A stretch of 64,000 nucleotides of DNA from Fimbriimonas ginsengisoli Gsoil 348 (GTDB lineage: Bacteria > Armatimonadota > Fimbriimonadia > Fimbriimonadales > Fimbriimonadaceae), in NCBI GenBank assembly GCA_945881865.1, contig CAMCVK010000002.1, forward strand, positions 1 through 64,000. The letters are read 5' to 3'. The position numbers were made by a program, and so were the translations under genes. The notes under the pieces were generated by a model that did no database searches, was not told the origin of the DNA, and worked only from the letters and a program-made list of their open reading frames with translations. Positions 56,795-61,802 of the stretch are shown here, one piece after another. Position 1 is the stretch's first letter. Every line of letters begins with the position of its first letter.

Positions 56795-57577
56795 ATGAAC
56801 TTAAAATTTATTATTGCGATCTGCGCTCTCGCGGTCACCGGCATCGCTTCTGCCCAGGTCACGACGACCCTCACCGGTCGAGTCCGAGACTTTAAGATGC
56901 GAAACACCCAGGGCGGCCACCCCGACTTCGAATGGCAGGTTAGCGGCCACAAGAAGGGCATGGTTTCGCAGTACACCAACAACGCAGGCAAGCCGAACTT
57001 CGTTGCCCCGAACGGCTACGGCGGAGTCACATCGAAAGACACGTTCAACCAGTGGTTCAACGACACGGCCGGCGTCAACGTTGGCTTCGACATGCCGATC
57101 ACGCTTACCCGCGCAAACAACGGCGTCTATACCTACAGCAACCAGAACTTCTTTGCCGCCGATAACAAGGGCTTTGGCAACCAGGGCTACAACCGCAACT
57201 ACGGTTTCACTTACGAAGTCAACTCGACCTTCGGCTACGAAGCTTCGAAGAACCACAAGTTCACCTTCACCGGCGACGACGACGTTTGGGTGTACATCAA
57301 CGGCAAGCTCGCCATCGACCTCGGCGGCGTTCACGGAGCCCTATCGCAGACGGTCGACCTCAACAGCATCGCCAGCAGCTTCAACCTTGTCGACGGTAAT
57401 AACTACAACATCCAGGTGTTCTACGCCGAGCGACACACGACCCAGTCCTCGTTCCGAATCGACACGACGATTCCGCTCGTAAATGCTCCGGTCAACCCGG
57501 TTCCCGAGCCGGCTACGATGGCCGTTCTCGGCATGGGCGCTCTCGCCCTGTTCCGACGCAAGCGCGCTTCGAAGTAA
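56795..57577 (+). CDS. PEP-CTERM protein with fibro-slime domain
   Basis: A 260-residue exported protein starting at ATG 56795 (signal 1-20, ending IASAQ). The central fibro-slime domain has FTFTGDDDVWVYINGKLAIDLGGVH, a PA14-related module of surface and adhesive proteins. The C-terminus is a full PEP-CTERM signal: VPEPATMAVLG, a hydrophobic helix, and RRKRASK, for sorting by an exosortase. The frame continues upstream to 56294 but that part opposes the previous gene and is not used. A strong terminator follows eight bases after the stop. Confidence 0.9.
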   Translation: MNLKFIIAICALAVTGIASAQVTTTLTGRVRDFKMRNTQGGHPDFEWQVSGHKKGMVSQYTNNAGKPNFVAPNGYGGVTSKDTFNQWFNDTAGVNVGFDMPITLTRANNGVYTYSNQNFFAADNKGFGNQGYNRNYGFTYEVNSTFGYEASKNHKFTFTGDDDVWVYINGKLAIDLGGVHGALSQTVDLNSIASSFNLVDGNNYNIQVFYAERHTTQSSFRIDTTIPLVNAPVNPVPEPATMAVLGMGALALFRRKRASK

Positions 57578-60340: not shown

Positions 60341-61042
60341 ATGAAAGCTACGTTTTGCCTTGGCCTTTTCACCGTCGCATCGGCCAGTTTTGCTGGAATT
60401 GTGAACACGCCCCTGACGGGCACCCCCCTATCCACGGTTGGGTCGTTCGTAGAAGCCCGTGGTCGCGTTGGCAGTAACTCCTGGAAGCAGGGTCTGCTCA
60501 GCAATACGTTTGACGCAACGAAGACGGCCGGAAACGCCTATTCCAATGTTTGGACGTCCGGCGTCAAGAAGTCGTTCACCCTCAGCTACACCGCTGCCAC
60601 TCAGACCTTCTCCTATCAGCTCGGCAGCGGCCCGACCCAGTCCTACGTCTACGCACCGGGCGTCGGCAAGGATTTCGTCGGCTTCCGAGTGGACGTCAAG
60701 TCCAGCGCGCAGTCGGGCAAGAACAGCAACAGCATGAAGATCGATGACATGGTTTACACCGACTTCTCCGGCGCAACCAACATTGCTGCGGCCGAATCGA
60801 ACGGTGGAAACGTCGTCGGACCGGCTTACTACTTCAGCCAGCTCGGAAAGGACTTCACCCTCACCGGTACCGCACTCTACACGAAGCCGGCGAACGCAGC
60901 TTCGGCAAACGACGACCGAGTGACGTTCTCGATCCGCGGACTCGATGCCGAAACGCCGGTTCAGCCGGTTTCAGAGCCGGCGAACGCCGCGATGGTTGGT
61001 CTCGGACTCTTCGCAATCTGCCGCCGCAAGCGGCTCATCTAA
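60341..61042 (+). CDS. PEP-CTERM family paralogue with degenerate sorting motif
   Basis: A 233-residue exported protein (signal to about SASFAG), starting at ATG 60341. Its middle is almost identical to the next gene. The C-terminal anchor keeps the helix and basic tail (VGLGLFAICRRKRLI), but the PEP triplet reads SEP (SEPANAAM). Because PEP is the exosortase recognition motif, this copy may be poorly sorted. The mature part, rich in Ser, Thr and Gly, has no known function. The longer upstream frame to 60227 crosses the palindrome and is not used. Confidence 0.88.
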   Translation: MKATFCLGLFTVASASFAGIVNTPLTGTPLSTVGSFVEARGRVGSNSWKQGLLSNTFDATKTAGNAYSNVWTSGVKKSFTLSYTAATQTFSYQLGSGPTQSYVYAPGVGKDFVGFRVDVKSSAQSGKNSNSMKIDDMVYTDFSGATNIAAAESNGGNVVGPAYYFSQLGKDFTLTGTALYTKPANAASANDDRVTFSIRGLDAETPVQPVSEPANAAMVGLGLFAICRRKRLI

Positions 61043-61087
61043 CGCGGTGCCGGAATCGGGATGGCGTGTCCGGCCGTGGAGCGGTGA

Positions 61088-61100
61088 TACGATCATCGTA
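61088..61100. promoter_or_regulatory. Palindrome directly before the second PEP-CTERM start
   Basis: TACGAT-C-ATCGTA abuts the ATG at 61101, where a ribosome site would be expected. No equivalent precedes the first copy. It may be an operator or a translation-blocking hairpin. Confidence 0.35.
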
Positions 61101-61802
61101 ATGAAAACAGTTCTTTCCATCAGCCTCTTCGCCATCGCCTCCGCTAGCTTTGCTGGAATCGTAAACACTCCTTTAACCGGAACCGACCTGACTACCGTTG
61201 GTTCCTTTGTTGAAGCCCGTGGCCGAATAGCTACCAACTCCTGGAAGCAGGGTCTTTTTAGCAGCACCTTCGATGCATCAAAGTCGACCGGAAACGCCTA
61301 CGCAAACGCTTTTACTTCCAGCGTTAAGAAGTCGTTCACCCTTAGCTACACCGCTGCAACCCAGACTTTCTCTTACAAGCTCGGTAGCGGCCCGACGCAA
61401 TCCTACGTTTACGCTCCGGGCGTCGGCAAGGATTTCGTCGGCTTCCGAGTAGACGTCAAGTCCAGCGCGCAGTCGGGCAAGAACAGCAACAGCATGAAGA
61501 TCGATGACATGGTTTACACCGACTTCAGCGGCGCAACCAACATCGCTGCGGCCGAGTCGAACGGTGGAAACGTCGTCGGACCGGCCTACTACTTCAGCCA
61601 GCTCGGAAAGGACTTCACCCTCACCGGCACCGCACTCTATACGAAGCCGGCGAACGCCGCCTCCGCGAACGACGACCGAGTGACGTTCTCCATCCGAGGA
61701 CTCGACGCCGAAGTCACAGCACAGCCGGTACCAGAGCCGGCAACCATGGCCGTCCTCGGCCTCGGACTCGCCGCATTCTACCGACGCAAGAAGTCGGCCT
61801 AA
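61101..61802 (+). CDS. PEP-CTERM surface protein, intact paralogue
   Basis: A 233-residue exported protein, exactly as long as the copy before it. The C-terminal signal is complete: VPEPATMAVLGLGLAAF then YRRKKSA. Signal peptide residues 1-18. Residues about 70-215 match the upstream paralogue almost perfectly, while the signal peptides and anchors differ, indicating recent duplication or gene conversion of the core. No exosortase is in the window. A terminator follows inside the convergent gene. Confidence 0.92.
   Translation: MKTVLSISLFAIASASFAGIVNTPLTGTDLTTVGSFVEARGRIATNSWKQGLFSSTFDASKSTGNAYANAFTSSVKKSFTLSYTAATQTFSYKLGSGPTQSYVYAPGVGKDFVGFRVDVKSSAQSGKNSNSMKIDDMVYTDFSGATNIAAAESNGGNVVGPAYYFSQLGKDFTLTGTALYTKPANAASANDDRVTFSIRGLDAEVTAQPVPEPATMAVLGLGLAAFYRRKKSA

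Follow-up and report, generated by a model that had tools for sequence, protein, structure and literature searches.

The closest described system to the locus reported here is that of PEP-CTERM proteins and exosortase (EpsH). Excerpts from Haft et al. 2006 describe the PEP motif as almost without variation and put it forward as the site of recognition; in their model it sits on the outer side of the inner membrane, the protein is anchored by the segment after it together with a basic cluster, and EpsH is suggested as the enzyme that cleaves at PEP (PMC1569441). For Aquincola, an excerpt of another study suggests that a PEP-CTERM protein becomes part of the extracellular matrix once mature (PMC9850573). 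MYXO-CTERM proteins with myxosortase and GlyGly-CTERM proteins with rhombosortase follow the same tripartite tag logic, and motif-loss experiments exist for them, but the enzymes are unrelated and the motifs are different, so that they offer an analogy only. For an archaeal sorting signal, permuting the PGF motif reportedly blocks cleavage, going by the title of the study. The open-licence literature yielded no experiments that mutate the first proline of PEP or map the tag residues an exosortase needs, and nothing relevant on PEP-CTERM proteins combined with gene conversion, choice-of-anchor, Fimbriimonas or Armatimonad, or on MSEP-CTERM.

The window, which is the whole 64,000-nucleotide stretch of DNA analysed, encodes a tandem pair of such proteins, copy A and copy B, arranged head to tail on the same strand with a gap of 58 bp (Table 1). 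The copies are 82% identical in DNA and 84% in protein. Residues 94-204 (111 residues) are identical in both, yet 19 codons there differ synonymously, and the signal peptides and tails have diverged. Copy A has no stop or frameshift. The coordinates and sequence bear out the original prediction of two tandem 233-residue proteins with a near-identical core and diverged signal peptides and tails, as well as its reading of the tags as SEPANAAM in copy A (in full VSEPANAAM) and PEPATMAV in copy B (VPEPATMAV).

Table 1. Features of the A/B pair (positions in the window) and of other tandem PEP-CTERM pairs in the genome
Feature	Position	Strand	Remarks
Copy A	60341..61042	+	intact 233-residue secreted-type gene, VSEPAN tail
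Copy B	61101..61802	+	intact 233-residue gene, regular VPEPAT PEP-CTERM tail
Copy A signal peptide, residues 1-18	60341..60394	+	cleavage between ASFA and GIV, judged by eye
Copy B signal peptide, residues 1-18	61101..61154	+	judged by eye
Copy A low-divergence (conversion) tract, codons 106-185	60656..60895	+	silent-site pattern
Copy B low-divergence (conversion) tract, codons 106-185	61416..61655	+	silent-site pattern
Copy A tail VSEPANAAMVGLGLFAICRRKRLI	60968..61039	+	lacks PEP; retains hydrophobic segment and RRKR
Copy B tail VPEPATMAVLGLGLAAFYRRKKSA	61728..61799	+	intact PEP-CTERM
Ser codon TCA in copy A, Pro CCA in copy B	60971..60973	+	single transition
Tandem pair L042/L055	G000:C5:159743/160465
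Tandem pair L044/L043	G000:C2:235683/236448
Tandem pair L053/L052	G000:C7:156797/157439
Tandem pair L062/L061	G000:C15:68687/69308

Both copies resemble exosortase substrates in having a signal peptide, a C-terminal hydrophobic segment and a basic end, and copy B carries the full tag. It scores 32.3 bits against the PEP-CTERM family PF07589 (cut-off 20.7) and 22.1 bits against TIGR02595 (cut-off 16). Copy A differs by the absence of the first proline, so that Pro-Glu-Pro reads Ser-Glu-Pro; it falls below the PF07589 cut-off with 13.1 bits (16.4 in the genome search) and is not listed by TIGR02595. The hydrophobic stretch and basic C-terminus, including RRKR, are present.

At 3.23 Mb in 26 contigs and 98% complete, the genome possesses the sorting system. 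It encodes a single exosortase of the EpsH family (PF09721, 166 bits; G000:C10:48848-49609), followed by a reading frame that we read as EpsI-like, together with 27 other PEP-CTERM tails. Named relatives of the enzyme belong to the Armatimonadota, many of them labelled Fimbriimonadaceae, which suggests this family for the genome itself, although the closest relative is 55% identical. An exosortase was found in 76 of 85 Fimbriimonadaceae genomes, with a median of 15 matches to the copy A tail, and the nine genomes without one have 0, 0, 0, 0, 1, 1, 2, 6 and 45 such matches. The last two values come from G067 (68% complete) and G095 (98% complete) and go against a strict pairing of exosortase and tails. 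G095 has 45 PEP-CTERM-like tail matches, with no exosortase found in a nearly complete genome. Five same-genus genomes of 4.9-6.5 Mb (G004, G005, G008, G012 and G019) have no exosortase and 0-2 weak tail matches, as if the whole PEP-CTERM system had been lost or never gained.

The body of the protein is less readily classified. Copy A is a marginal match to the choice-of-anchor W family NF041928 (50.2 and 50.8 bits, cut-off 45) over almost the whole domain, and relatives with this domain carry PEP tails. Copy B, by contrast, was not reported, whole or trimmed; the homologue in the related genome G013 scored 44.2 bits, and that in G014 (L011) was likewise unreported. Since the copies are 84% identical, these absences are probably an effect of the HMMER filters, and the loss of copy B while copy A scores 50 bits would then be a caution about what filters may miss near the edge of a family. 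Solved structures gave a single match with an E-value of 0.31, which is not meaningful. Structure prediction with both copies as input reached a mean pLDDT of 49.5; the model is mostly beta with a C-terminal helix and too poor for searching.

Synonymous changes along the pair, whose count had been proposed as a check on gene conversion of the core, are strongly clustered. Copies A and B share the residue at 192 degenerate codons, of which 58 differ. The least diverged segment in a two-change-point scan is codons 106-185, where 7 of 78 such codons differ silently against 51 of 114 elsewhere, and none of 1000 permutations matched the strength of this low segment. The dS falls from 1.60 in codons 20-105 to 0.12 in codons 106-185, and is 0.72 in codons 186-204 and 0.76 in codons 205-233. 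Identity between the copies peaks (0.99) around codons 107-140 and fades on both sides; the edges of the tract are not sharp, and more than one conversion event is thus possible.

A similar pattern might arise if selection on codons or RNA, rather than recombination, kept the core alike. The homologues in G013 and G014 (49% and 47% identical), one clear full-length homologue per genome, served as a control for such silent constraint. In the stretch homologous to codons 106-185 they differ at 33 of 72 silent sites, compared with 64 of 121 outside (Fisher p = 0.37), so there is no drop, and outside the stretch their divergence is similar to that of A and B; within the stretch itself, the A/B pair (7/78) and the control pair (33/72) differ (Fisher p = 3e-7). 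We therefore reject regional silent constraint, which is barely credible given these counts, in favour of recombination between A and B. Gene conversion between the neighbours, as originally predicted, is well supported, and the pair is a gene-converted tandem duplicate in which a tract of low silent divergence lies within otherwise diverged copies.

The tail of copy A has changed well beyond its first proline. The proline-to-serine replacement itself is a single C-to-T change at position 60971, yet A and B disagree at 11 of their final 24 residues, and the SEP form is therefore not one lone sequencing error. Seven of 20 aligned residues in the copy A tail are absent from all other tails of the genome, each of which has 0-3 such residues. 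What persists are the glutamate, the second proline, the preceding valine, the following alanine, the hydrophobic segment and the two arginines, and the mean hydropathy of 1.89 lies within the range of the genome's own tails (1.74-2.36).

Polarised by relatives, eight tail changes fall on the copy A side and one on the copy B side, with five left unassigned (binomial p = 0.039). The rest of the mature protein shows nine and five, respectively. As the ratios 8:1 and 9:5 do not differ significantly (Fisher p = 0.34), relaxation specific to the tag is not proved, and copy A may be evolving somewhat faster throughout. The tail is relaxed with a dN/dS of 0.40/0.66, a ratio still below 1, and some constraint may persist. 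Outside the tract and tail, codons 20-105 have a dN of 0.094 at a dS of 1.60, which indicates that purifying selection has long acted on one copy at least, and probably on both.

Of the 141 other tails that were read, none has lost the PEP motif. All 27 other tails in the genome that exceed the cut-off read VPEPA[ST]. A second sample consists of 89 relatives' tails, among the matches listed outside this genome with the copy A tail as query (85 genomes), and every one reads VPEP. Thirdly, 32 places with the poorest profile scores were read in six genomes of the same genus; seven (L232, L233, L235-L239) were left out as not being PEP-CTERM tails, and the 25 real but weak-scoring tails all keep PEP. 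Profiles that contain PEP bias a search in its favour, but they nevertheless found copy A, and for G013, G014, G001 and G015 all matches up to an E-value of 10 were listed. The eight homologues of the A/B protein in Fimbriimonadaceae also carry PEP, and copy B as a query in the named genomes found no further relatives. Checking relatives for the SEP form, as had been suggested, thus returned none among the 89 listed and 25 weak tails or the eight homologues. Judged from these tails and homologues, PEP is ancestral and SEP derived, and the loss of PEP in copy A is real and rare.

We propose that an exosortase-sorted surface protein gene was duplicated in tandem long ago and that recombination between the neighbours recently overwrote about codons 106-185 of one copy with the other. 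The ends outside this tract have diverged. The tag of copy A has drifted, with PEP changed to SEP along with several positions that are fixed elsewhere in the genome; a stretch able to span the membrane and RRKR as a stop-transfer cluster persist. There is little doubt about the duplication, the conversion or the altered tag. Because PEP survives in the 141 other tails and copy A lies below the PF07589 cut-off, a loss of exosortase recognition is likely: the single exosortase would most likely recognise copy A poorly or not at all, and on balance copy A is probably not processed. Copy B would be cut and then passed to the cell surface or matrix. Copy A, presumably exported by means of its signal peptide, would sit uncut in the inner membrane, exposed to the periplasm, or be degraded there; since the hydrophobic segment and RRKR are kept, an uncut copy A should stay in the inner membrane, and retention rather than release is a good bet if processing fails. 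For this reading as a whole, with copy A uncut and either membrane-held or degraded, we estimate a probability of roughly 0.45.

Several other fates of copy A were weighed. Exosortase might tolerate SEP, in which case both copies would be cut and reach the same destination and the tail would merely have drifted. The residues retained around the motif, the hydrophobic segment, the paired arginines and the tail dN/dS below 1 are all compatible with this, yet the first proline survives in every one of the 141 other tails, even the weak ones, copy A scores 13.1 bits against a cut-off of 20.7, and the excerpts of Haft et al. 2006 treat the nearly invariant PEP as the proposed recognition site (PMC1569441). 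We therefore regard continued processing as doubtful. A serious rival, although also unlikely and slightly more so, is that copy A is simply redundant and turning into a pseudogene, with its tag being lost in the process, and that conversion only freshened its middle. Such decay would fit the excess of changes on the copy A side in tail and mature part together (8+9 versus 1+5) and the fact that no relative examined has the SEP form. It fits poorly with the intact reading frame, with the maintained hydrophobicity and basic cluster, and with the long purifying selection recorded in codons 20-105, which at least one and probably both copies experienced.

The original prediction went further and suggested that loss of PEP gives anchored and secreted forms, with copy A secreted or released and copy B anchored. 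This part finds weak support, as copy A keeps its hydrophobic segment and RRKR and would be expected to be retained in the inner membrane if uncut; a secreted form would require a second protease. Other tag systems point both ways. In excerpts of the respective studies, the T2SS releases VesB when its GlyGly-CTERM is not intact, but VesB is largely degraded without rhombosortase (PMC6219818); TraA in which SS replaces CC is found in truncated form in the medium and as full-length, unprocessed protein retained in cells (PMC11980579). By analogy, the outcome of motif loss is mixed: retention, degradation or release. The equation of PEP with anchored and SEP with secreted might even need to be reversed, because the mature Aquincola protein is itself proposed to join the matrix (PMC9850573). 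Secretion of copy A is accordingly improbable, more so than the fates weighed above.

It is also conceivable, if quite unlikely, that this clade sends a single surface protein to two places: its gene is duplicated, the working domain is kept alike by conversion and one tag is changed, so that exported and cell-held copies coexist. We retain this reading on account of a possible parallel, a tandem-array gene with a changed tail in both G013 and G014. In G013 (L240:1235-4332, on G013:C4), three homologous PEP-CTERM genes lie in tandem and the first has a strongly altered tail ending in LSQRKRSHRSIV; a similarly altered tail occurs in G014 (L231, G014:C1:184000-184210). These tails read PEPAPF..LSQRKRSH and PEPAPI..VGQRMRSK, respectively, and the array neighbours in G013 are regular.

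In A and B, nature offers one protein body with two different tags, in a genome whose single exosortase serves 27 regular tags besides, and thus a ready test of the role of the first proline. The pair could also show whether tandem duplication and gene conversion re-address a protein. The finding concerns one gene pair in a single genome and, as an experiment of nature with a sorting system already described, is of modest interest.

Tandem duplication is habitual for PEP-CTERM genes in this genome. Four more neighbouring PEP-CTERM pairs, 0.6-0.8 kb apart, have near-identical tails (Table 1); start codons in these were set by a rule of thumb, which failed for L043 and L062. In three other tandem pairs of the genome, 0 or 1 of 24 tail residues differ, compared with 11 of 24 between A and B (Fisher p = 3e-7). 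There the bodies have diverged and the tails are nearly fixed, the opposite of the A/B pair. A leaderless promoter (TANNNT immediately ahead of PEP-CTERM starts) was considered and is unsupported: the motif precedes 6 of 26 genes, and shuffling gave 3.0 on average and up to 9. The window encodes a further PEP-CTERM protein at 56825-57577 on the plus strand, which bears a fibro-slime/PA14 domain (106.7 and 46.5 bits).
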